From an uncultured Lachnospiraceae bacterium (lineage in GTDB: Bacteria; Bacillota; Clostridia; Lachnospirales; Lachnospiraceae): 64,000 nucleotides of DNA. The notes beneath the pieces were generated by a model that was not told the DNA's origin, made no database searches, and saw only the letters and a list, made by a program, of their open reading frames with translations. The DNA lies in the NCBI GenBank assembly GCA_947243855.1, contig CAMXIK010000001.1:62001-126000 (forward strand), written 5' to 3'. Shown here in pieces: positions 45,391 to 57,033 of this stretch (position 1 is the stretch's first letter; each line of letters opens with the position of its first letter). The translations under genes were made by a program, and so were the position numbers.

Positions 45391-45430
45391 GAATAGGGCA
45401 AAAAAGAAGGAAATGAAGGAGGATGACTTC

Positions 45431-46804
45431 ATGAAAAGAAAAGTGAAAGGAAAGGCTGTGGCGGCGGCACTGATTTTGACGTTGACAGTCACAGGGCTTA
45501 CCGGATGTACGTTCGGATTTGCCAGTGATCCGGATGACCCCAATCAGGTGGAGGAAAAGGTAGAGATTGATACGTCGATCGACACTTTTTCGTATGATTC
45601 CGCTTTGAAGGGAACAAGTATTACGTTGATGAACAGTAAGGCGGAGATACAGGTTGCCTTGGAGGAAATGGCCGTTGTGTTCGAGGAAAAGTCTGGCGTC
45701 CATGTAGAAGTGATGCCTGTCACAGACGGGGATTCTCCTTATACGAAGGTAGTGAGCTTGTATAATTCGGGAAATCCGCCCACTTTATCCATTCTGGATA
45801 CGACGGATGTGATCGCTCTGGCACAGGAGAAGGCGGAAGATTTGTCTGCGGAGGAATGGACGAAGGAAGCGGAAGGATACCTGACCGAGGTAAATGGAAA
45901 AGTGTATGGCTTTCCGCTCTGTATCGAGGGACGCGGACTGATTTATAACAAAGCGGTGATTGAGCAGGCGTTGGGAGAAACCTTTGATCCAGCGTCGATC
46001 AAAACGCAGGAAGAGTTTACGGCTTTGCTTGACAGATTGGTGGCAGCGGGCATAGAGAGACCGGTTTCCATGGCGAAGGAAGACTGGTCTTTGGGAGCGC
46101 ACCAGCTTCAGTACATCTATGAGACTTATGACGGCACTTCCGAAGGCGCGCAGCAGGTGATCGAGCAGATTAAGAGCGGAGAACTGCAGGTAGAGGATCA
46201 TCAGCGTATGACAGAGTTTTTGAATACCTTTGACATTTTAAAGAAATATAATGTGGCAAAAGGGGACCCGCTGGGTGCGGATTACGACGAGATGGCTATT
46301 GATCTGGCGGATGGCAAGACGGCCTTTTGGTTTAACGGTAACTGGGCATGGCCGAACTTGAAGGAAGCAGGCGCGAAGAATGAAGATGCTTACGGATTAC
46401 TGCCGTATTTTCTGAATAATGATGAGAACGATTTTGCCAATCAGATGATTCAGGGTTCTCCCTCCAAGCAGGTTATGTTGGACGGTCAGGTGGCGGATGA
46501 AAAGCAGAAGGCGGCTGCGAAAGAGTTCCTTAACTGGATTGTGTATAGTGAAATTGGGCAGCAGATGTTGGTAAAGACCTGTAATGTGATCCCGCCGTTT
46601 AAGAACAATCCTTATGAACCTGAGGACCCGTTGAGCAGGGACATTTATGAACATGTACAAAACGGTACGGCGTTTAACGCATCCGCGATCGTGCCAAACG
46701 ATCACTGGGCGGTTCTGGGAGCGGCTATGCAGAAATATTTGGCCGACAGATGCGACAGGGCGGAATTAATGGCGGCGATTGAGGAGTATTGGTCGCAGCA
46801 GTGA
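45431..46804 (+). CDS. Sugar ABC transporter substrate-binding lipoprotein
   Basis: A 457-residue SBP_bac_1 family lipoprotein with a basic N-terminus, hydrophobic signal and lipobox LTGC (about Cys27). The binding domain begins near residue 55 (GTSITLMNSKAEIQVALEEMAVVFEEKSG) and includes the family PLCIEGRGLIYNKAV and WFNGNWAWPNL segments. It captures an oligosaccharide outside the membrane; given the enzymes downstream, sucrose or a short fructan is the best guess. The start at 45431 follows AAGGAGG; the longer frame to 45413 contains that site. No matching ATPase gene is in the locus, so a shared MsmK-type ATPase is likely used. Confidence 0.92.
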   Translation: MKRKVKGKAVAAALILTLTVTGLTGCTFGFASDPDDPNQVEEKVEIDTSIDTFSYDSALKGTSITLMNSKAEIQVALEEMAVVFEEKSGVHVEVMPVTDGDSPYTKVVSLYNSGNPPTLSILDTTDVIALAQEKAEDLSAEEWTKEAEGYLTEVNGKVYGFPLCIEGRGLIYNKAVIEQALGETFDPASIKTQEEFTALLDRLVAAGIERPVSMAKEDWSLGAHQLQYIYETYDGTSEGAQQVIEQIKSGELQVEDHQRMTEFLNTFDILKKYNVAKGDPLGADYDEMAIDLADGKTAFWFNGNWAWPNLKEAGAKNEDAYGLLPYFLNNDENDFANQMIQGSPSKQVMLDGQVADEKQKAAAKEFLNWIVYSEIGQQMLVKTCNVIPPFKNNPYEPEDPLSRDIYEHVQNGTAFNASAIVPNDHWAVLGAAMQKYLADRCDRAELMAAIEEYWSQQ

Positions 46805-46862
46805 CGGTTCGGGAAACAACAAGCAACCAACGGATAGAAGAATGAAGAAAGAGGGTAAGAGG

Positions 46863-47735
46863 ATGGAGTCGAAAAAGAAAGGAAAAGATTTCTGTATCTT
46901 TGCGCTGCCGGGCATGTTTTGTTTCTTCGCGGTGGTAATCATACCGTTTCTTTACGGTGTGTATCTGACCTTTACGGATTGGGACGGCGTAGCGCAGACA
47001 AAGAATTTTATCGGATTTAGCAACTTTATCGGCGTAGTGCGGGACGGACAGTTTTGGTTATCTTTGCTCTTGACGTTCCGGTATGTGATCGTGGTGGTTA
47101 TTCTGGTGAATGTGCTGGCCTTTGCGATTGCGTGGCTGCTGACGAGGGGCATAAAAGGACAGAACTTTTTCAGGGCCGGATTTTTTACGCCAAACCTCAT
47201 TGGAGGCATTGTACTGGGATATATCTGGCAGTTTGTTTTCTCCCGTGTGTTTGTGAATATCGGGGAGAGTACCGGATGGAAGCTGTTTGAAATTTCATGG
47301 CTGTCGGAGCCGAATAAGGCGTTTGCGGCGTTGGTGCTGGTGTCCGTGTGGCAGCTTTCGGGTTACATGATTCTGATTTATGTGGCTGGATTTATGGGAC
47401 TGAGCGAGGATGTATTGGAGGCTGCGAGCATAGACGGCGCGGCAGGCTGGGCAAAGCTGAAAAATATCATTATGCCGTTAATGATGTCCTCCATTACGAT
47501 CTGCCTTTTCCTGACGCTTTCCCGCGCGTTCATGGTATACGATGTAAACTTATCTTTGACAGCCGGAGGCCCTTACGGCACAACGGAAATGGCCGCTATG
47601 CATGTCTATGAAAAAGCGTTTACATCCAGACAGTTCGGCGTGGGGCAGGCGGAAGCGTTGATCTTGTTTATTGTGGTGGCATGTATCAGTGGATTGCAGG
47701 TTTACCTGACGAAGAAACAGGAGGTGGAGGCATGA
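46863..47735 (+). CDS. Sugar ABC transporter permease 1 (MalF/UgpA type)
   Basis: A 290-residue permease with six membrane segments, beginning with a basic cytoplasmic start then FALPGMFCFFAVVIIPFLYGVYLTF. The EAA loop LEAASIDGAAGWAKLKNIIMPLM (about 195-217) is intact. Several in-frame ATGs lie upstream; 46863 is chosen because AGAGGGTAAGAGG precedes it. Its stop overlaps the start of permease 2 (ATGA). Confidence 0.92.
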   Translation: MESKKKGKDFCIFALPGMFCFFAVVIIPFLYGVYLTFTDWDGVAQTKNFIGFSNFIGVVRDGQFWLSLLLTFRYVIVVVILVNVLAFAIAWLLTRGIKGQNFFRAGFFTPNLIGGIVLGYIWQFVFSRVFVNIGESTGWKLFEISWLSEPNKAFAALVLVSVWQLSGYMILIYVAGFMGLSEDVLEAASIDGAAGWAKLKNIIMPLMMSSITICLFLTLSRAFMVYDVNLSLTAGGPYGTTEMAAMHVYEKAFTSRQFGVGQAEALILFIVVACISGLQVYLTKKQEVEA

Positions 47736-48595
47736 TGAAGCAGACGGAAGTTGGCGGAACCAGAAAAAAAGTGACGAACAGTTTGGCGATAGCCGCATTG
47801 GTTGTTCTATTTATTGCTTATATGTTTCCCTTTATCATGGTGGTGATTAACTCGCTCAAGCAGAAGAGGGATATTATCAAAAGCCCGTTTTCATGGCTGT
47901 ATACCATTAAGGGCCTTTCCTTTGACAACTTTGTAAAAGCGTTTACGCAGATGGACTTTTTGAATGCGTTCAAGAATTCCCTGTTTGTCACAGTTTCAGC
48001 GACTTTCCTAGTAACGCTGCTGGCGGCGATGCTTGCGTACTATATTGTCCGCAATAAAAATGTGATTTCAGGCGCAACCTTTGCGTTGATGGTGGCGTCC
48101 ATGATTATTCCGTTTCAGGCGATCATGATTCCGTTGGTGAGCATTTACGGCGGCACGTTAAATATCCTGAATCACAGGCTTACCTTGATCTTTATGCATA
48201 CTGGTTTTTCTATGGCAATGTCGGTCTTTATGTTCCACGGGTTTGTGAGAGGAAATGTGCCGATTGCCTTGGAGGAGGCGGCTTATCTGGAGGGCTGTAC
48301 CCATACGCAGACGTTTTTTAAGATCGTACTGCCGCTGCTCAAACCCATTATTTCGACGATGGTAATTTTAAATTCGCTTGCTTTTTGGAACGATTTCCTT
48401 TTGCCGTCGCTGGTGCTTACGGATAAAAAGCTGTTGACGCTGCCGCTCTCCACATACAGTTTTTATGGCACGTATTCTGCGGATTACGGTACCATTATGG
48501 CGGGGCTTTTGCTGTGCGTACTGCCGATTCTCATCCTCTATGTGGTATTGCAGAAACAGATTATCGGCGGCGTTGTAGCAGGAGCAGTGAAATAG
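47732..48595 (+). CDS. Sugar ABC transporter permease 2 (MalG/UgpE type)
   Basis: A 287-residue permease with six membrane segments and the EAA loop LEEAAYLEGCTHTQTFFKIVLPLL (about 200-223). Tandem ATGs at 47732 and 47735 follow AGGAGGTGG; the first overlaps the upstream stop. The protein ends with the usual QKQIIGGVVAGAVK tail of the family. It pairs with permease 1 to form the channel. Confidence 0.92.
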   Translation: MMKQTEVGGTRKKVTNSLAIAALVVLFIAYMFPFIMVVINSLKQKRDIIKSPFSWLYTIKGLSFDNFVKAFTQMDFLNAFKNSLFVTVSATFLVTLLAAMLAYYIVRNKNVISGATFALMVASMIIPFQAIMIPLVSIYGGTLNILNHRLTLIFMHTGFSMAMSVFMFHGFVRGNVPIALEEAAYLEGCTHTQTFFKIVLPLLKPIISTMVILNSLAFWNDFLLPSLVLTDKKLLTLPLSTYSFYGTYSADYGTIMAGLLLCVLPILILYVVLQKQIIGGVVAGAVK

Positions 48596-48611
48596 GAGAA
48601 GGATTGTCGAA

Positions 48612-49931
48612 ATGAGAAGAGATACGATACATTTGAAGGCGCCGGGCAACTGGATAAACGACCCTAATGGATTCATTTACTATAAAGGAAAATATCATTT
48701 GTTTTACCAACATTTTCCCTACGCGCCGGTCTGGGGCACCATGCATTGGGGGCATGCCGTAAGTGAAGATCTGGTAAACTGGGAACATCTGGGCATTGCC
48801 CTGTTCCCGACCAGATATGAAGATCAGAACGGCTGCTTTTCCGGCAGCGCCATAGAACACGAGGGACGCATGTATTTGTACTATACCGGCATTCACCATA
48901 TGCAGACAGATCCCGACAATATTCATCTTAGTCCGGGCGATGCGTTTGAATCAGCGCAGCTCATGATTACTTCCGAAGATGGGATGCACTTTGACAATTT
49001 TCACGGAAAGACGGTGGTCGTGCCGCCCATTGCGGACAGCCGGATCGGGGACAGGACGCATACAAGAGACCCGAAGGTTTGGCGCGGCAGGGACGCATGG
49101 TATATGGTGCTGGGCACCATGACGGCAGAACGAAAAGGCGCGCTGCTTTTCTACCGCAGTGAAAATCTGACAGACTGGAACTATGTGAATACCGTATCTG
49201 CAAAGGAAGAGCTTGGTTGGATGTGGGAGTGCCCGGATTGCTTTGAAGTGTCTGGAAAAACGGTGCTGATTGTCTCGCCGATGGGGCTGCAAAAGCAGGC
49301 GCCGCTGGAGGAGAATCATACGGTCTGTATGACAGCAGCGTTTGAGGAAGAAACGTGTAGGATGCAGTTACCGGACAATTACCAATATTTGGATTACGGT
49401 ATGGATCTCTATGCGCCGCAGTCAACGTTGGATGAGGAGGGACGAAGAGTCCTTGTGGCGTGGCTGCGTATGCCGGAACCGGTAGATGGGGAATGGATCG
49501 GGATGTTCTGTATGCCGAGAGTAGTGGAAATGGAAGACGGACATATTTGTTTTCGGGTGCATCCCTATGTAGAGAGAATGTTTACGAGAAAAATCACATA
49601 TCCGAGACAGGCGGACGGCGCGGGGTACAGAGTTCGTTTTGCCTTGCGGGAGGGCGGGGAAATTTCGATTGGCGGATACCGTATTTGGCGGGAGGGAAGT
49701 CGAATCTGTACGGACAGGAGCGCTGTTTTTCCCCGAAATGAGAAGTTTCGCCTGCAGGCGTCCACGCCTGAAATAGAAGGAATATGTGAATTGGACGTTT
49801 ATGTGGATGCGCATATGATTGAGATATTTGTCAATCGAGGAAGGTATGTACTCAGTCATGCAGTTTACGGTCTGACAGACGAGGTTCAAAGCGATTCGGT
49901 TGAGAAATGGGAAATCACTGCGGTGGGGTAA
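48612..49931 (+). CDS. GH32 sucrose/fructo-oligosaccharide hydrolase
   Basis: A 439-residue beta-fructosidase without a signal peptide, thus cytoplasmic. The three GH32 catalytic residues are in place: nucleophile Asp17 in WINDPNG, Asp153 in TRDP and acid/base Glu206 in WECPD. A C-terminal beta-sandwich follows (about 320-439). It releases fructose from sucrose, sucrose phosphate or short fructans; the ABC importer next to it suggests an unphosphorylated substrate. It starts 16 bases after permease 2. Confidence 0.93.
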   Translation: MRRDTIHLKAPGNWINDPNGFIYYKGKYHLFYQHFPYAPVWGTMHWGHAVSEDLVNWEHLGIALFPTRYEDQNGCFSGSAIEHEGRMYLYYTGIHHMQTDPDNIHLSPGDAFESAQLMITSEDGMHFDNFHGKTVVVPPIADSRIGDRTHTRDPKVWRGRDAWYMVLGTMTAERKGALLFYRSENLTDWNYVNTVSAKEELGWMWECPDCFEVSGKTVLIVSPMGLQKQAPLEENHTVCMTAAFEEETCRMQLPDNYQYLDYGMDLYAPQSTLDEEGRRVLVAWLRMPEPVDGEWIGMFCMPRVVEMEDGHICFRVHPYVERMFTRKITYPRQADGAGYRVRFALREGGEISIGGYRIWREGSRICTDRSAVFPRNEKFRLQASTPEIEGICELDVYVDAHMIEIFVNRGRYVLSHAVYGLTDEVQSDSVEKWEITAVG

Positions 49932-49968
49932 CGTAGAAGAAAATCTGGAAGAAGGAGGACGCCATAGG

Positions 49969-51807
49969 ATGTCAAAGATGGATGAAATATTTCAGACAAG
50001 ACTGGAAAGACACCATGACGAGTTAAAATGGCTTTATATGGAATTATATGACAATGATTCCATGTTTGCGGAACTGTGCACAAATTTGTATCGGTTTTAT
50101 AAGGAGCGGAGAAGGCAGCTTAAGACGCGGGATAAAGAGCGGGAGAAGAATCCGGAATGGTTTCGCAAAAATGATATGCTGGGAATGATGTTGTACATCG
50201 ATCAGTTTGCAGGCAATCTCAAAGGGGTAAAAGAGAAGCTTTCTTATCTGGAAGCATGTCAGGTTAATTGTATTCATTTGATGCCTTTTTTGGATTCCCC
50301 GAAAGAGCATTCCGACGGCGGCTATGCGGTGGCGGATTTCAGAAAAGTCAGGGCGGATCTAGGTACGATGGAAGATTTGTCTGAACTTGCGGATGTGTGT
50401 CATCAAAAGGGAATGAACCTCTGTATGGATTTTGTCATGAATCATACTTCGGAGGAGCATGAATGGGCGGTCCGTGCAAGGAAGGGTGAAGGCGAGTATA
50501 TGAGCCGTTACTTTTTCTATGACAATCAGGACATTCCCGAGCGGTACGAGCAAACCGTACCGCAGGTATTTCCGACGACAGCGCCGGGAAATTTCACCTA
50601 TCTGCCGGAGATCGGACATTATGTGATGACTACCTTTTACCCCTATCAGTGGGATTTGAATTATGGAAATCCCCGCGTATTTAATGAGATGATGTACCAT
50701 TTTCTGTTTTTTGCCAATCAGGGTATGGACATTATTCGGATAGATGCAGTGCCTTATATCTGGAAAGAGCTTGGAACAAGCTGCCGCAATCTGCCTCAGG
50801 TGCATTCGATTGTGCGCATGATGCGCATGATTGGGGAGATTGTCTGTCCAAGCGTGCTTTTACTAGGCGAGGTAGTGATGGAACCGGAAAAGGTCGTTCC
50901 CTATTTCGGAACGGTGGAGAAACCGGAATGTCATATGCTCTACAATGTAACCACGATGGCGAGCACATGGAACTGTGTGGCCACAAAAGATATCCGTCTG
51001 CTAAAAAGGCAGATGGAGGCGGTCAATCAGCTTCCGTCGGCGTATACTTTTTTGAATTATCTGCGCTGTCATGACGATATTGGCTGGGGGCTGGATTACG
51101 GGTTCCTTGCACAGTGGGAAATGTGGGAGGCGCCGCATAAGCGGTTTCTGAACGATTACTTCACCGGAAAGATACCGGGAAGTGTCAGCCGGGGCGAGCT
51201 GTACAACGATGATCCGGTTACGCAGGATGCTAGATTCTGTGCGACGACGGCTTCTATGTGTGGAATCGAGAGCGCGCAGGAAACGAATGATCCGGACGCG
51301 CTGCAGGCGGCCATTCATCTGGATATCATGCTCCATGCGTATATGCTGACGCAGTCCGGAATCCCGATGCTTTACAGTGGGGATGAAATTGGGCAGATCA
51401 ACGACTATTCCTATAAGAATGATCCGGATAAGGCGTCGGATTCCCGCTATCTTCACCGGGGGAAATTTCGTTGGGATCTGGCGGAGAAAAGAAAGGCGAA
51501 GGAAAGTGTGCAGGGCAGGGTATTCGGTGCGCTGAATGAACTGGAACGGATTCGCAGACTGGAACGGGTTTTTGAGGCGTCTGCGGATGTTTGGACTTAT
51601 GATGTACACAACAATGCGATTCTCTGCATCGTACGGGAGCAGGCGGGAGAACGGTTTTTTGGAATCTTTAACTTCGCGGATCGTCCAGAGACGGCGTGGA
51701 TGCGGGAGGAGGGCGGCTATACGGAATTGCTCACCGGAAAGAAGATGGAATTAGTTGACATTGTGATACCTCGGTATGGGTTTTACTGGTTGAAAAAAGA
51801 GAACTAA
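49969..51807 (+). CDS. Amylosucrase-like GH13 enzyme
   Basis: A 612-residue GH13 protein with the extra N-terminal helical domain (about 1-95) typical of amylosucrases and sucrose hydrolases (GH13 subfamily 4). The nucleophile is Asp259 (IIRIDAVPYIWK), acid/base Glu301 (LLGEVVM), and the transition-state pair is in CHDDIGW (His368-Asp370). It acts on sucrose, either hydrolysing it or transferring glucose onto an alpha-glucan, which would link with glycogen made by GlgC/GlgD. Start chosen at 49969 after AAGGAGG; the frame to 49900 overlaps the GH32 gene. Confidence 0.85.
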   Translation: MSKMDEIFQTRLERHHDELKWLYMELYDNDSMFAELCTNLYRFYKERRRQLKTRDKEREKNPEWFRKNDMLGMMLYIDQFAGNLKGVKEKLSYLEACQVNCIHLMPFLDSPKEHSDGGYAVADFRKVRADLGTMEDLSELADVCHQKGMNLCMDFVMNHTSEEHEWAVRARKGEGEYMSRYFFYDNQDIPERYEQTVPQVFPTTAPGNFTYLPEIGHYVMTTFYPYQWDLNYGNPRVFNEMMYHFLFFANQGMDIIRIDAVPYIWKELGTSCRNLPQVHSIVRMMRMIGEIVCPSVLLLGEVVMEPEKVVPYFGTVEKPECHMLYNVTTMASTWNCVATKDIRLLKRQMEAVNQLPSAYTFLNYLRCHDDIGWGLDYGFLAQWEMWEAPHKRFLNDYFTGKIPGSVSRGELYNDDPVTQDARFCATTASMCGIESAQETNDPDALQAAIHLDIMLHAYMLTQSGIPMLYSGDEIGQINDYSYKNDPDKASDSRYLHRGKFRWDLAEKRKAKESVQGRVFGALNELERIRRLERVFEASADVWTYDVHNNAILCIVREQAGERFFGIFNFADRPETAWMREEGGYTELLTGKKMELVDIVIPRYGFYWLKKEN

Positions 51808-51899: not shown

Positions 51900-52505
51900 A
51901 TGGATCATACAGGGATTTATGGGTACATGAGGGTGTCTTCCAAGGATCAGAATGAGGACAGACAGCGGATTGCACTGCTTGCTATGGGAGTGCCAGAGAA
52001 AAATATTTACATGGACAAGCAGTCCGGTAAGGATTGTGAAAGAGCGCAGTACAAAAGACTTTTGCGGAAGCTGGATGAGCATTCCGTTTTGTATATCAAG
52101 TCTATAGACCGGCTTGGCAGGAATTACAGTGATTTGAACGAGCAGTGGCGCATTATCACAAAAGAGAAGAAAGCGGATATTGTCGTCATTGACATGCCGA
52201 TTCTTGACACAAGACGGGAAAAGAACCTATTGGGAACATTTATAAGCGACATCGTCCTTACATTGCTTAGCTACGTTGCGGAGAACGAACGAAACAATAT
52301 CAAGCAAAGGCAGGCGGAAGGAATTGCGGCGGCAAAGGCAAGGGGTGTGAAATTTGGCAGGCCGTCAATACCACTGCCGGATAATTTTTACAGTGTGCAT
52401 AAAATGTGGAGGGATAAGAAGCTGACTTTGAAACAGGCCGCAAAAGTGTGTAACCTTGCGGAAAGCACCTTCTTTGATAAAGCAAGAGATTTTGAAAGGT
52501 CATAG
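51900..52505 (+). CDS. Serine recombinase (resolvase/invertase family)
   Basis: A 201-residue small serine recombinase. The N-terminal catalytic domain (about 5-140) begins GYMRVSSKDQNEDRQ with Ser13 as nucleophile, and includes the IKSIDRLGRNYSDL segment with the conserved Arg pair. A long E-helix and a C-terminal helix-turn-helix (about 165-195, LTLKQAAKVCNLAESTFF) follow. Small enzymes of this kind act as DNA invertases or resolvases. Two inverted copies of a dyad crossover-like site lie immediately downstream, so promoter inversion is the likely role. Confidence 0.92.
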   Translation: MDHTGIYGYMRVSSKDQNEDRQRIALLAMGVPEKNIYMDKQSGKDCERAQYKRLLRKLDEHSVLYIKSIDRLGRNYSDLNEQWRIITKEKKADIVVIDMPILDTRREKNLLGTFISDIVLTLLSYVAENERNNIKQRQAEGIAAAKARGVKFGRPSIPLPDNFYSVHKMWRDKKLTLKQAAKVCNLAESTFFDKARDFERS

Positions 52506-52524
52506 TTTTCAGCGCTTATAAAAA

Positions 52525-52548
52525 TCCGAAAAGGTGTACTTTTTCGGA
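52525..52548. repeat. Left crossover-like inverted-repeat site of an invertible segment
   Basis: A 24-bp imperfect dyad TCCGAAAA...TTTTTCGGA with central GT. Its right 15 bp (52534-52548) recur exactly, inverted, at 52651-52665. It could also fold as the recombinase gene's terminator hairpin. Confidence 0.75.
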
Positions 52549-52576
52549 TTATCGACTAGTTATTTAATTATCATAT

Positions 52577-52604
52577 ATTATACCAAAATACATAGATTCT
52601 TCAA
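52577..52604 (-). promoter_or_regulatory. Sigma-A promoter inside the invertible segment, pointing left
   Basis: On the minus strand a consensus TATAAT (52577-52582) is preceded by TGG (extended -10) and has TTGAAG 16 bp upstream (52599-52604). In the given orientation it fires away from the glycosyltransferase. Inversion between the flanking sites would move its start to about 52629, some 56 bp before the glycosyltransferase start codon. Confidence 0.7.
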
Positions 52605-52650
52605 GGAGAATTTGGAAAATATGCACATTTGGGAACTCCTCCTTTAAACT

Positions 52651-52674
52651 TCCGAAAAAGTACACATTAGCGGA
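52651..52674. repeat. Right crossover-like inverted-repeat site of an invertible segment
   Basis: TCCGAAAAAGTACAC at 52651-52665 is the exact complement of 52534-52548, and the site extends to TAGCGGA at 52674, keeping the TCCG/CGGA dyad ends. The central AC is the inverted form of the left site's GT, which predicts inversion, not deletion. Confidence 0.75.
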
Positions 52675-52684
52675 GGTTGGGTTT

Positions 52685-53395
52685 ATGGATAAGCTGTATA
52701 TTGTGATGCCCGCGTATAACGAGGAGGAAAATATAGAAGCTGTTGTAAGAGCATGGTATCAACAGCTTGAGGGAAAAAGCAAGGCTTCAAGGCTTGTGGT
52801 CGCCGACAGTGGGAGTACGGACAATACGCATCAGATATTATGGAAATTGAAAGCTGGCATGCCGCAGTTGGAGATATTGACAGATTCTGACAGGCGGCAT
52901 GGGCCTAAGGTTATTGCCTTGTATCAATATGCGATTAGTCAAGGCGCAGATTATATTTTTCAAACAGATTCGGACGGGCAGACAGAACCAAATCAATTTC
53001 CGTTATTTTGGGATAAAAGAATCGAATACGATATTGTGTTAGGATACCGCGCTGAGCGCAGTGACGGAAAACAGCGCGATTTTGTGGAAAAGGTTGTGTG
53101 TACGCTGCTAAAAATTTATTTTGGGGTAACAGTTCCGGATGCGAATGCGCCGTTCCGCTTGATGAAAGCTTCTGTTGTAGAAAAATATTTATACAGATTG
53201 TGGCCGGAATATGATATTCCCAATATTATGCTCACTACATGGTTTGCGTTTTATCACGAGAACTATATTTTTCAGAAAATCAGCTTTCATCCAAGGCAGG
53301 GAGGAATTAATTCCGTCAATATGCCGGGGATTATGAAAATAGGTTGGAAAGCGCTGGGGGATTTTAGAACTTTTAAAAAAGAAATGGTTAGCTGA
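52685..53395 (+). CDS. Family 2 glycosyltransferase (dolichol-phosphate-mannose synthase type)
   Basis: A 236-residue GT-A glycosyltransferase. The N-terminal YIVMPAYNEEENIEAVV binds nucleotide sugar, and the DxD metal site is Asp95-Ser-Asp97 (QTDSDGQTEP). It has no membrane anchor. Related enzymes charge a polyprenyl-phosphate carrier with a sugar, which would supply the downstream PMT/ArnT-like membrane transferase. GCGGAGG precedes the ATG. The upstream segment contains a promoter aimed the other way between inverted sites, so its expression is probably phase-variable. Confidence 0.87.
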   Translation: MDKLYIVMPAYNEEENIEAVVRAWYQQLEGKSKASRLVVADSGSTDNTHQILWKLKAGMPQLEILTDSDRRHGPKVIALYQYAISQGADYIFQTDSDGQTEPNQFPLFWDKRIEYDIVLGYRAERSDGKQRDFVEKVVCTLLKIYFGVTVPDANAPFRLMKASVVEKYLYRLWPEYDIPNIMLTTWFAFYHENYIFQKISFHPRQGGINSVNMPGIMKIGWKALGDFRTFKKEMVS

Positions 53396-53442: not shown

Positions 53443-55023
53443 ATGAAAGAATATATAAAAAAGGGTGAAAAATATATTGTCGGGTTTGTGTTTTTGCTAT
53501 ATCTGTCAGTGGCTGGCTATAAGTTGACAAATGCCCCTCTCTGGTTTGACGAGACGATTGAATATTGGTTTTCAAAAGTTATGTTCGGCGAACTGCCTTT
53601 TGAATCGGTGGGAACTGTGGGTTCTGTGAATATGTATCAAAGGATTATTTCTACGTTTCAACCGCCTTTATACAATTTTGTAATGCATTTTTGGCTAAAA
53701 TTTGGGGATGGAGAGTGGTGGTTTCGCTTTTTTGGCGTTGCAATGGGATTTTTGGGGATGACTGCCGTATTTAAAACCGTTAAAAGAATAGGGAATGCGT
53801 ATATTGCGTCTATGGCAGTGTTTTTTTGCAGTTTTGTCTATCAACTGGTTTATTACTGGCAGGAATGTGCGGAATACTGCCTGATGCTTGCAAGCTTGTT
53901 TTGGACAATTTATTTTTGGTTCAGGCTGATGGAACAGATAACACCCAAAAATATTATCCTATTCACGGTTTCTGCAATCATACCCGTATATAGTCAATAT
54001 GGAGCCGCATGGGCTGCTGCGGGAATGATAGTTGCCGCCTATATTTATGTTTTACGGAGCAAAAACAAGACTTGTATCATGACCGTTCATGTTTCTTATG
54101 CCGCTGCGCTGATCGTCTTTGCGTTACCGTTATATTTTTTGTTTCTAAAAAAACAGATGTTAATTCAGCAGAGAGGAGAAATTGCGCTTCAGGCGGTGGA
54201 TTGGAATATGAGTTTACTTCATGATATGATTCATAATTTTAAAGTTGTATTTCAATGGAATTTTGCTTCCAGCTTTAGTGACGCCGCCATAAATATATGT
54301 ATTGTCGTTAGTAGTTTTGCCGTGCTGTTTGTTTTACTTGCGGGGAAAAATAACGTCATAAAGACATTTGTTGTCGTTAATATTTTTACATGGCTGATCT
54401 ATTATTTTTCGGTCAAAACCTATTTATACGCCTATGGAAGTTTTGGAAATCGGTATCATCTGTTTCTCATTCCTATGTGGATTATCTTATTTTTTGCGGT
54501 CGGAATTAACCTATATCAAATGATGGCGGACAGACTTTTAGAAAAAAAGAACGTTTTTCCATTTTGTTTCGCTATAATATGCGCATGTTTTATTTTTGGC
54601 ATTTCGTTTTTTTCGTGGAACAAAACGATAAAATATAACTGGGAAAAAGAAAATATTCGCGGAGCGGTGGAAGCGTGGTATGCGCAAAATGCGGAAACGT
54701 CAAATACAATTGTGTATTATGCGGCGGACAGCGGTTTTAGCTATTATGTGAAAATCAATGACAACTACACGGAACAAACGGAAGATAATGTAAATTATAT
54801 GCCATGGTACAGGGAAAAAAGCCCGGGAGAGTATCTTGCCTATGTGAAATCCATATATCAGGACGTTTTACCCGGTGAAATTTATATCGTTGGTTCGCAT
54901 ACCAGAGATAATGTTGATTTTAATGCGCTTGTTGATGCCATTATTTCGGAGGGTTACGGCAGGGAAGATTTATTTTCCTCCAATGCGTATCTCGTTAGGC
55001 TGACTAAGACAGCGGGAGAATAA
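53443..55023 (+). CDS. ArnT/PMT-like membrane glycosyltransferase
   Basis: A 526-residue membrane protein with about eleven hydrophobic segments. The first outer loop carries the Asp36-Glu37 pair in APLWFDETIEYWF, the catalytic signature of the PMT/ArnT (GT39/GT83-like) superfamily that moves a sugar from a lipid-phosphate carrier onto an acceptor outside the membrane. A soluble C-terminal domain (about 405-526) follows. It lies 47 bases after the GT2 gene, with a strong terminator after it, so the two form a short operon decorating a surface molecule of unknown identity. Confidence 0.8.
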   Translation: MKEYIKKGEKYIVGFVFLLYLSVAGYKLTNAPLWFDETIEYWFSKVMFGELPFESVGTVGSVNMYQRIISTFQPPLYNFVMHFWLKFGDGEWWFRFFGVAMGFLGMTAVFKTVKRIGNAYIASMAVFFCSFVYQLVYYWQECAEYCLMLASLFWTIYFWFRLMEQITPKNIILFTVSAIIPVYSQYGAAWAAAGMIVAAYIYVLRSKNKTCIMTVHVSYAAALIVFALPLYFLFLKKQMLIQQRGEIALQAVDWNMSLLHDMIHNFKVVFQWNFASSFSDAAINICIVVSSFAVLFVLLAGKNNVIKTFVVVNIFTWLIYYFSVKTYLYAYGSFGNRYHLFLIPMWIILFFAVGINLYQMMADRLLEKKNVFPFCFAIICACFIFGISFFSWNKTIKYNWEKENIRGAVEAWYAQNAETSNTIVYYAADSGFSYYVKINDNYTEQTEDNVNYMPWYREKSPGEYLAYVKSIYQDVLPGEIYIVGSHTRDNVDFNALVDAIISEGYGREDLFSSNAYLVRLTKTAGE

Positions 55024-55057: not shown

Positions 55058-55097
55058 GGCCCGTTCGTGACAAAAAAGGAATGCGGGCCTTTTTTTA
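55058..55097 (+). terminator. Terminator of the glycosyltransferase operon
   Basis: GGCCCG (55058-55063) pairs with CGGGCC (55084-55089), followed directly by seven Ts. Confidence 0.85.
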
Positions 55098-55150
55098 TGC
55101 CGATATATCATATCAGAAGGAAATCAAGCGCGAACGAAGGGAGCATAAAC

Positions 55151-55867
55151 ATGTTGTGGATCGCTGTATGCGATGACGAAGTCACAGAATGCAGTAAAAT
55201 AGCCAAAAGGATCAGAGAAATGTTAACGGAAATGAAAGTGCTTTGCGAGGTGCGGCAGTTTTACAGCGGACAGGAGCTCTTGCAATCGTCCGAATCTTTC
55301 GACATCATTTTTCTGGATATTATCATGGGCGGATTGGACGGTATGAAAACGGCGCAGATTGTCAGGGAAAAGGCCTATGACAAGCTGCTTGTTTTTATAT
55401 CCGCCAGCCGCGACTATGTGTTTGACGCCTACGATGTGGAAGCGTTTCAGTATCTGCTAAAGCCGATTGAGGATCAAAAGCTGAAACGGGTGTTACAGAA
55501 GGCAGTCTGTAAAACGTTGGAACGGTCGCAGGCATTCATCATCATAAGCAGAGACAGACAAAAGAAAAAAATATTTTTGGATACGATTTTTTATTTTGAG
55601 ATTCGGGGACGCATGATTGACGTTCACGGAACAGACGGTGTTTTCAGCTATTATGGGCAGATTGGCGCGTTGGAAAAAGAGCTGAAAGGAAAGGGCTTTT
55701 TCCGCTGCCATAAAAGCTATTTGATTCATTTAAAATATGTGGACGTGTACAACAGGCAGGAGGCTATCCTCGATAACGGAGAGCGGATTGCCATTGCCAA
55801 GAGACGGTATGAGGCGTTTTGTGGGGAAATTCTTGAATATATGCGGGGCAAAGGAGGAATTGTGTGA
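55151..55867 (+). CDS. LytTR-family response regulator
   Basis: A 238-residue regulator. The receiver domain has the acidic pair Asp8/Asp9 (VCDDE), phosphorylation site Asp56 (IIFLDIIMG), Ser in FISAS and Lys in LLKPIE. A LytTR DNA-binding domain follows (about 135-235), including FRCHKSYLIHLKYV. The start at 55151 follows GGGAG; the longer frame to 55067 runs through the terminator. It is translationally coupled to the sensor kinase. LytTR/GHKL pairs of this AgrA/AgrC type often read peptide signals, but no signal-peptide gene was seen next to it. Confidence 0.92.
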   Translation: MLWIAVCDDEVTECSKIAKRIREMLTEMKVLCEVRQFYSGQELLQSSESFDIIFLDIIMGGLDGMKTAQIVREKAYDKLLVFISASRDYVFDAYDVEAFQYLLKPIEDQKLKRVLQKAVCKTLERSQAFIIISRDRQKKKIFLDTIFYFEIRGRMIDVHGTDGVFSYYGQIGALEKELKGKGFFRCHKSYLIHLKYVDVYNRQEAILDNGERIAIAKRRYEAFCGEILEYMRGKGGIV

Positions 55868-57033
55868 TGCGGTTTAACAGACAGGCGGAAAAAATGTTGC
55901 GGGCAGCATCTATGCTGGCAACGATAATCATACTGGTATATTTGGCGCAATTTTTTTTAGTTTGCTTTTTTTGCTGCTTGATTTTGATATGGAAACATGC
56001 GGTATGGCAGATCGCTGTTCCTTTTGTGGAGGACAAGGAGGCGGATTTGATCGCATGGTGCTGTTTTGGCATAGCGATTATGGCGGTATACGGAATGAGA
56101 AAGCAGCTTCGTGCTGTCTTTCGGGGAAAGCCATGGAAATGGTATGCAGTGCTTATCCTTCCGCTGCTTGTGGTGGAGGCGGTGGCCTATACGGCAAATT
56201 GGGGCGCACAATATGGCATTTTATATAGAAGCGGGGGAAATATGGGTCTGTATTACGATCAGATTTTCAGCTATGCAGGGTGGGTTATCCTGTCCGGTTT
56301 ATCTCTGTTTGCGGTGGGGGCATATGTATTTGGTATGCACCGGATTTATGTGGAACAGCAAAAAGCCGAGCGGTATCAAATGCAGGCAGCGGTCTATCAA
56401 ACGCTGGAGGAGCAGTACAGGCATTCGGAGCGGCTGAGACATGATTTAAAAAATCATGTGCTTGCGCTTCAAGGTCTGTGGGAGGAGCAGGCTTGGGAAA
56501 AGCTGGGGGATTATCTGGAAAGGATGGAGGACAGCGCACAGCTTAGAACAAATGAGGAAGCCACGGGAAACAGAGCGATGGACGCGCTTTTGTGCCAGAA
56601 ACGGAAAATGGCGGAGGAAAGAGGAATCTTATGGGAATGCAGCGTACAGATACCGAGATTTTGCCAGATAGATACATTTGATTTGTGCGTCCTGTTTGGA
56701 AATATACTGGATAATGCGGTGGAGGCGTGCGACAGATTAAAAGACAGTGGGACGCGGCGGGATTCGCAGCCCTTTATCCACGTTCGTGCGGAGGCCGTCA
56801 AAAAATGCTTTTTACTGGAAGTCAAAAATAGTATGAATGCTGTAGAGCAGAAAAAGGGCGGGCCATCGGGGAAAGAAAACCCGCAAGGGCATGGAATCGG
56901 CCTGCTGAACGTGGGAGACGTGGTGCGCAGATACAACGGCGTTTTGAACACGGAAATGCAGAACGCCGTTTATGATATCTCAATTTTGCTGCCGCTTGGG
57001 GAGGCCGCATATGACACTGAACGGGCTGTTTGA
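55867..57033 (+). CDS. GHKL-domain sensor histidine kinase
   Basis: A 388-residue AgrC-type kinase. The N-terminal half has about five membrane segments (to about residue 160), then a dimerisation helix with the phospho-acceptor His in RLRHDLKNH, and an ATP-binding domain with the N box NILDNAVEAC and G box GHGIGLLNV. The ATG at 55867 overlaps the regulator's stop (TGATG), preferred over the GTG at 55864. It forms a two-component pair with the upstream LytTR regulator; the stimulus is not evident. Confidence 0.9.
   Translation: MRFNRQAEKMLRAASMLATIIILVYLAQFFLVCFFCCLILIWKHAVWQIAVPFVEDKEADLIAWCCFGIAIMAVYGMRKQLRAVFRGKPWKWYAVLILPLLVVEAVAYTANWGAQYGILYRSGGNMGLYYDQIFSYAGWVILSGLSLFAVGAYVFGMHRIYVEQQKAERYQMQAAVYQTLEEQYRHSERLRHDLKNHVLALQGLWEEQAWEKLGDYLERMEDSAQLRTNEEATGNRAMDALLCQKRKMAEERGILWECSVQIPRFCQIDTFDLCVLFGNILDNAVEACDRLKDSGTRRDSQPFIHVRAEAVKKCFLLEVKNSMNAVEQKKGGPSGKENPQGHGIGLLNVGDVVRRYNGVLNTEMQNAVYDISILLPLGEAAYDTERAV

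Follow-up and report, generated by a model that had tools for sequence, protein, structure and literature searches.

Mpi of Bacteroides fragilis is a serine recombinase that flips short promoter segments controlling surface polysaccharide genes, the one enzyme serving many dispersed site pairs. Hin and Gin invert segments of roughly a kilobase with a Fis-bound enhancer, and the Sin/Bin3 resolvases (Tn552, Staphylococcus) act on directly repeated sites, which they resolve with the help of accessory sites. RecV is a tyrosine recombinase, and the RecV-type switches of Clostridioides difficile are, as far as the accessible part of the source describes them, invertible elements that control cell-surface genes in a clostridium. 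The hCom2 survey, in the part of it available to us, reports that Clostridia have short invertible stretches of DNA next to recombinase genes, as candidate promoters, and its main Clostridia link, between inverton group 139 and invertase group 35, concerns tyrosine-type recombinases (PMC11892184).

The locus described here lies in a 64-kb stretch of DNA that was analysed whole and is referred to below as the window. Judged from its sequence, it is very probably a self-contained phase switch, in which a GT2-PMT_2 gene pair would be turned ON and OFF by recombinase-driven flipping of a 126-bp segment. As in the Mpi system, a promoter would be flipped by a serine recombinase; the assembled genome here, however, has one local, exact site pair where Mpi has many, and the extended −10 promoter stands at a fixed place. 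Like Hin and Gin, the recombinase would invert DNA between paired sites, but the segments in its family measure 83–179 bp and are in helical phase. Sin/Bin3 is the best structural match by sequence, yet the sites in the window are inverted and flank a promoter. The resemblance to RecV-type switches ends at the enzyme, which here belongs to PF00239, and the clostridial invertons of hCom2 differ likewise, since in the accessible part of that survey tyrosine-type enzymes are stressed, whereas the enzyme in the window is a serine recombinase; overlap with some of its groups is possible.

Results

Anatomy of the locus

The features of the locus are listed below in window coordinates.

51900 to 52505, plus strand: gene for a small serine recombinase of 201 amino acids (PF00239), the presumed invertase of the adjoining segment
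52525 to 52548, no strand: left recombination site, read from the sequence, 24 bp, a strong palindrome with core GTGTAC at 52534–52539
52537 to 52662, no strand: putative invertible segment, 126 bp between the site centres, equal to 12.0 turns of 10.5 bp
52577 to 52604, minus strand: extended −10 promoter by motif, TTGAAG-16-TATAAT with TG ahead of the −10, reading left, away from the GT2 gene
52651 to 52674, no strand: right recombination site, read from the sequence, 24 bp, inverted, core GTACAC at 52660–52665
52671 to 52675, plus strand: Shine-Dalgarno-like GGAGG, read from the sequence, lying partly within the right site at its outer end
52685 to 53395, plus strand: GT2 glycosyltransferase gene, 236 amino acids (PF00535, 52.4 bits), predicted first gene of the switched operon
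53443 to 55023, plus strand: PMT_2-type membrane glycosyltransferase gene, 526 amino acids (PF13231, 37.4 bits, cut-off 26.1), predicted second gene

The recombinase scored 99.1 bits against PF00239 (cut-off 23.3), its sole Pfam match at E ≤ 1e-3, and in its own genome it is the single match at the same threshold. Its top relative of solved structure is Sin/Bin3 (2r0q, E 2.7e-24); the alignment with gamma-delta resolvase spans residues 6–193, DNA-invertase structures (3uj3, 4m6f) align with residues 7–194, and its motif YMRVSS pairs with YARVSS/YARVST of Sin and gamma-delta. A tyrosine-recombinase inverton (RecV, or group 139 as the accessible part of PMC11892184 presents it) was excluded, PF00239 alone having matched at E ≤ 1e-3. 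The best NCBIfam match was the Mpi model NF009949, at 49.1 bits against a cut-off of 272, and membership of the Mpi family was rejected on that score. The preliminary description of this DNA had drawn a parallel with Mpi, which is sound for the way the system works and fails for family membership.

The two sites share an exact inverted 15-bp arm (52534–52548 and 52651–52665). Their central dinucleotides are opposite, GT at 52536–52537 and AC at 52662–52663, with centres 126 bp apart, and the left site starts 19 bp after the recombinase gene ends. When exact inverted 15-mer pairs with a gap of 40–200 bp were sought, these sites were the only pair in the whole 64-kb window, and no such pair arose in 60 copies of it generated by a first-order Markov model. 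The assembled genome (81 contigs) holds no further exact copy of the 15-mer; it has two copies with one mismatch, unpaired and each on other contigs.

The minus-strand promoter motif has 10 of 12 matches to consensus. Promoter-like sites within 1.8 kb number 5, where shuffles gave 3.9 ± 1.9; the local count is no more than chance, and taken by itself the motif is weak evidence. Its −10 ends 40 bp from the centre of the left site. By arithmetic, a flip about the two centres would carry the −10 to 52617–52622 and the start to near 52629, 56 bp before the GT2 ATG at 52685, and the Shine-Dalgarno-like GGAGG would be unchanged in either orientation because it overlaps the outer end of the right site. 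The preliminary description had sketched the same arrangement: a serine recombinase adjoining two 24-bp sites with an exact 15-bp inverted arm and GT versus AC centres, a GT2 gene beside the switch, and between the sites an extended −10 promoter pointing left, away from that gene, whose start after flipping would fall about 56 bp before the GT2 start codon. Each of these elements was found again.

The GT2 gene is followed after 47 bp by the PMT_2-type gene. Against NCBIfam the GT2 protein weakly resembled PgfS and an undecaprenyl-phosphate sugar transferase, with every score far under cut-off, and the PMT_2-type protein had no match. A role of the pair in lipid-linked sugar transfer of the GtrB/GtrC kind, in which a GT2 enzyme makes a polyprenyl-phosphate sugar for a membrane (GT-C) transferase, would fit the two Pfam families. 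A capsule operon was set aside as the target, the switch being followed by just the GT2 and PMT_2 genes and then a LytTR/GHKL pair. This LytTR response regulator and GHKL histidine kinase (55067–57033) lie directly 3′ of the two glycosyltransferase genes and are colinear in the sister species G003. Upstream, 45413–51807 holds ORFs that by appearance encode a sugar ABC transporter, together with GH32 and alpha-amylase-family genes, an apparent sucrose or fructan operon. A prophage origin of the window's copy was set aside, its flanks being sugar-transport and sugar-hydrolase genes and a two-component pair. No tRNA and no Rfam family at gathering score was found in the window.

Of 77 genomes of the genus, 18 encode a GT2 homologue, the window's own genome counted. 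At the 20 other homologue places (17 other genomes) the flanks, examined over at most 1.5 kb, contained no recombinase match, an absence that is weak for L131, L135 and L138, where less than 600 bp lies upstream, and the DNA upstream of GT2 differs at these 20 places. The switch thus looks like a module set before different genes. In G003 the recombinase is 93% identical to that of the window; its contig ends within the left site (window 52545) and another resumes in the PMT_2 gene (window 54137). This second contig then runs on colinear with the window, so G003 is probably arranged alike, its switch and GT2 gene having fallen into the assembly gap.

Relatives of the recombinase

When one genome per species was scanned, 405 relatives of the recombinase came up, and the best 80 of these were taken further. 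Addition of genus, family and viral loci brought the set to 190 distinct recombinases, after removal of matches shorter than about 150 residues and of duplicates, including L157, a second copy of the window. Loci were picked by protein similarity to the window recombinase (P0001) and never by their sites. At least 200 bp followed the stop codon in 177 of the 190, and the 13 with less room were dropped. The threshold for an inverted pair was a 99% null from 576 shuffles of an earlier, smaller set, reused here.

Just past the recombinase stop codon, 91 of the 177 relatives have an inverted pair above this null with a GTRTAC-type core (GTGTAC/GTGTAC in 54, GTATAC/GTATAC in 17); L257, with an inverted pair and no core, was left out of the 91. 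The centre of the left site lies a median of 24 bp past the stop codon. Arranged by identity to the window protein, paired loci make up 24 of 44 at 70% or more, 52 of 93 at 60–70%, 15 of 36 at 50–60% and none of 4 below 50%. The 86 loci without a pair by this criterion include 20 of the 44 at 70% identity or more. In one sampling of the window's family, 37 of 220 genomes and 36 of 219 genera had a close relative of the recombinase (E ≤ 1e-70). Among relatives on viral contigs (L159–L177), paired sites were present in one of the 15 with 200 bp of room, a rarity that points to a different use there.

Promoters were scored with a weighting of our own, and a locus was called ON or OFF where one strand was clearly better, which gave 45 OFF, 20 ON and 26 uncalled among the 91. 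The −10 ends 38–42 bp from the centre of the site ahead of it in 44 of the 65 called loci; 510 of 1820 shuffled segments were callable, and 3.3% of those placed the −10 end at this distance. This conserved position supports the window promoter better than its motif score does.

Spacing of the sites

The centre-to-centre spacings of the 91 loci cluster at 115, 126–127, 137–138, 147–149, 166 and 176–177 bp. In 76 of the 91 the spacing deviates by no more than 2 bp from an integral number of 10.5-bp turns, where 44% would be expected over the range of 83–179 bp, and none of 4000 null sets reached the phasing statistic observed (R = 0.627 at 10.5 bp). The simplest reading would be that the recombinase dimers must occupy the same face of a short looped DNA. 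The alternative with most to recommend it, which we nevertheless regard as unlikely, is that a few segment lengths inherited from common ancestors produce the phasing, which would then owe nothing to the geometry of synapsis. Close relatives do share lengths, and the signal weakens as the set is thinned: with one representative per 70% identity cluster (n = 24), 37 of 4000 null sets reach it, and in the earlier, smaller set, representatives below 75% identity (n = 15) gave no significant phasing, 17% of null sets being as strong. Against descent, none of 4000 null sets reached the signal with one representative per 90%, 80% or 75% cluster (n = 75, 55 and 36). Moreover, 40 of 70 nearest-neighbour pairs differ in spacing by at least 4 bp, and in 30 of these 40 the difference is within 2 bp of whole turns, where 16.8 would be expected and none of 20,000 simulations did as well. 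The loci that had failed the repeat criterion also speak for synapsis geometry: an exact paired core is present in 11 of them, against 0.06 expected from shuffles for the 86, and, once L011 and L073 with two candidate pairs each are excluded, all nine held-out loci with a single core pair, chosen by core motif alone, are in phase. The position of the −10 and the helical phasing are family-wide rules, and both go beyond what the preliminary description had claimed.

Orientation of the segment

The interior segments of the 91 loci were compared with one another in both directions (4095 pairs). Above threshold, 24 pairs matched best inverted and 41 best in the same orientation, against none of 4000 shuffled comparisons; the pairs are not independent, because related loci recur (L115 is in 8 of the inverted pairs). 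Promoter calls were opposite in all 15 callable inverted pairs and agreed in 21 of 22 callable same-orientation pairs. Two cases have homologous flanks on both sides. In L069 and L115, from the window's genus, 174 of 177 columns are identical when one segment is inverted, against 110 of 209 forward, and the flanking recombinase and GT2 regions are identical in 453 of 561 and 826 of 904 columns. The second case pairs L011, from Lachnospiraceae bacterium GAM79 (a complete genome), with MT835780, a record that bears the name Bacteriophage sp. and no annotation. Here 128 of 137 columns are identical inverted and 83 of 155 forward, and identity in each of the two flanks is 86% (481 of 560 and 772 of 900 columns). 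The window segment itself matches that of L010 inverted (score 49, against 20 forward) and that of L007 in the same orientation (score 47, against 18 inverted).

Assemblies also tend to break here. Among the best 80 of the 405 loci, the contig stops no more than 260 bp downstream of the recombinase match in 13 and no more than 260 bp upstream of it in 2 (one-sided p 0.004), as expected if assemblers met mixed orientations, other causes being possible. The L013 contig is palindromic about the switch, with a large inverted repeat of the recombinase, which is probably a misassembly at a flipping segment; its segment is opposite to that of L012. The proposal in the preliminary description of a promoter inverton beside a serine recombinase, now in the OFF orientation, is supported by the anatomy and chiefly by the relatives in which both orientations lie between homologous flanks.

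We infer that this recombinase would do the flipping, and that it would do so in this strain. It would bind the inverted sites at 52525–52548 and 52651–52674, which would meet by looping out the 12 helical turns between them, and strand exchange at the central GT/AC dinucleotides would then invert the 126-bp segment. In the assembled orientation, OFF, the promoter would face left, its transcripts entering the recombinase gene at the 3′ end, and GT2 would lack a good promoter. In the flipped orientation, ON, the −10 would stand 40 bp ahead of the centre of the right site, the start would fall about 56 bp before the GT2 start codon, and the GT2-PMT_2 pair would be transcribed with the same Shine-Dalgarno sequence. 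The pair would probably charge a lipid carrier with a sugar and transfer that sugar to an envelope polymer, so that the outcome would be a mixed population of glycosylated and unmodified cells.

There is some doubt, if not much, about how clean such a switch would be. Inversion could be real and the output of GT2 still not a simple alternation of ON and OFF, with antisense RNA damping the recombinase and read-through keeping GT2 partly on; we think this improbable. The present promoter does read toward the recombinase, the segment as now oriented also contains a plus-strand promoter-like sequence that is weaker (9 of 12), and a scan from the recombinase to GT2 found no intrinsic terminator. 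The hairpin of the left site did not pass that scan, so the OFF state could be leaky through read-through from the recombinase. That hairpin could nevertheless stop transcripts: it folds at −13.9 kcal/mol on the plus strand (z −3.9, none of 200 shuffles equally stable) and at −11.0 kcal/mol on the minus strand (z −2.2), where TTTTAT follows. The left site forms the more stable hairpin in 42 of 57 loci, a count uncorrected for relatedness and drawn from the earlier, smaller family set, which may contain duplicates. The recombinase-proximal hairpin (52518–52550) perhaps doubles as a terminator between the recombinase and the segment. At 52641–52690 the right site may pair with the Shine-Dalgarno region of GT2 (CUUCCG/CGGAGG; −10.7 kcal/mol, z −1.4), a weak structure.

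That the recombinase is a resolvase or mobile-element relic and the inverted repeat a terminator or regulatory palindrome, with nothing flipping at all, is barely credible: the nearest solved structures are indeed resolvases (Sin/Bin3, gamma-delta), the left site forms a good hairpin and plasmids often encode similar proteins (389 records, Enterococcus accounting for 298, all below 60% identity), but both orientations of the segment lie between homologous flanks, and 91 loci have paired cores, conserved arms, a conserved promoter position and phasing.

Discussion

A promoter flipped by a recombinase is a known kind of switch; the breadth of this serine family in Clostridia and the rules of its layout are the addition. 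In the literature searched we found no description of the window's recombinase family or of phased spacing, an earlier mention being possible, and the available portions of the review PMC11868660 and of PMC10939037 do not mention the family. A more general proposal has, in our estimation, about an even chance of being right: that these loci are widespread, portable clostridial phase-switch cassettes, each a small serine recombinase with a phased promoter segment whose ends have to lie on the same side of the helix, and that the geometry of a loop of about 10–17 turns, and neither an enhancer nor the overlap sequence, would set inversion as the outcome. The GTATAC sites (17 of 91, for example L010 and L014) bear on this point. 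Their central AT is palindromic, so the overlap cannot tell inversion from deletion, which fits loop geometry as the deciding factor. L010/L007 and L011/MT835780 appear inverted despite the palindromic centre of their GTATAC-type cores.

With such layout rules, the presence of a switch, the state it is in and the gene it controls could be predicted from genome sequence alone. The phasing also opens an old question about serine recombinases, how the geometry of synapsis selects inversion, in natural segments that are very short. Phase variation in these gut bacteria may extend beyond glycans, because the predicted targets include GT2 proteins, membrane O-acyltransferases, flagellins, a protein kinase and EcoRI-type methylases. 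The downstream genes were scanned in the earlier set (57 ORFs from 59 loci, two loci having no ORF), with 25 of 39 families listed; among the matches listed, the first downstream ORFs comprise Glycos_transf_2 (9, the window included), EcoRI_methylase (3), MBOAT (3), Acyl_transf_3 (2), flagellin (2), dynamin (2), protein kinase (1) and a chemotaxis signalling domain (1). The EcoRI_methylase loci could possibly be phase-variable switches of DNA methylation; their ORFs, assigned through similar N-termini, are likely L015:6816–7787, L016:6815–7756 and L102:319–1269 (minus strand). The flagellin ORFs, with members likewise taken from their N-termini, lie right behind the switch at L022:6834–8819 and L028:6790–8793.
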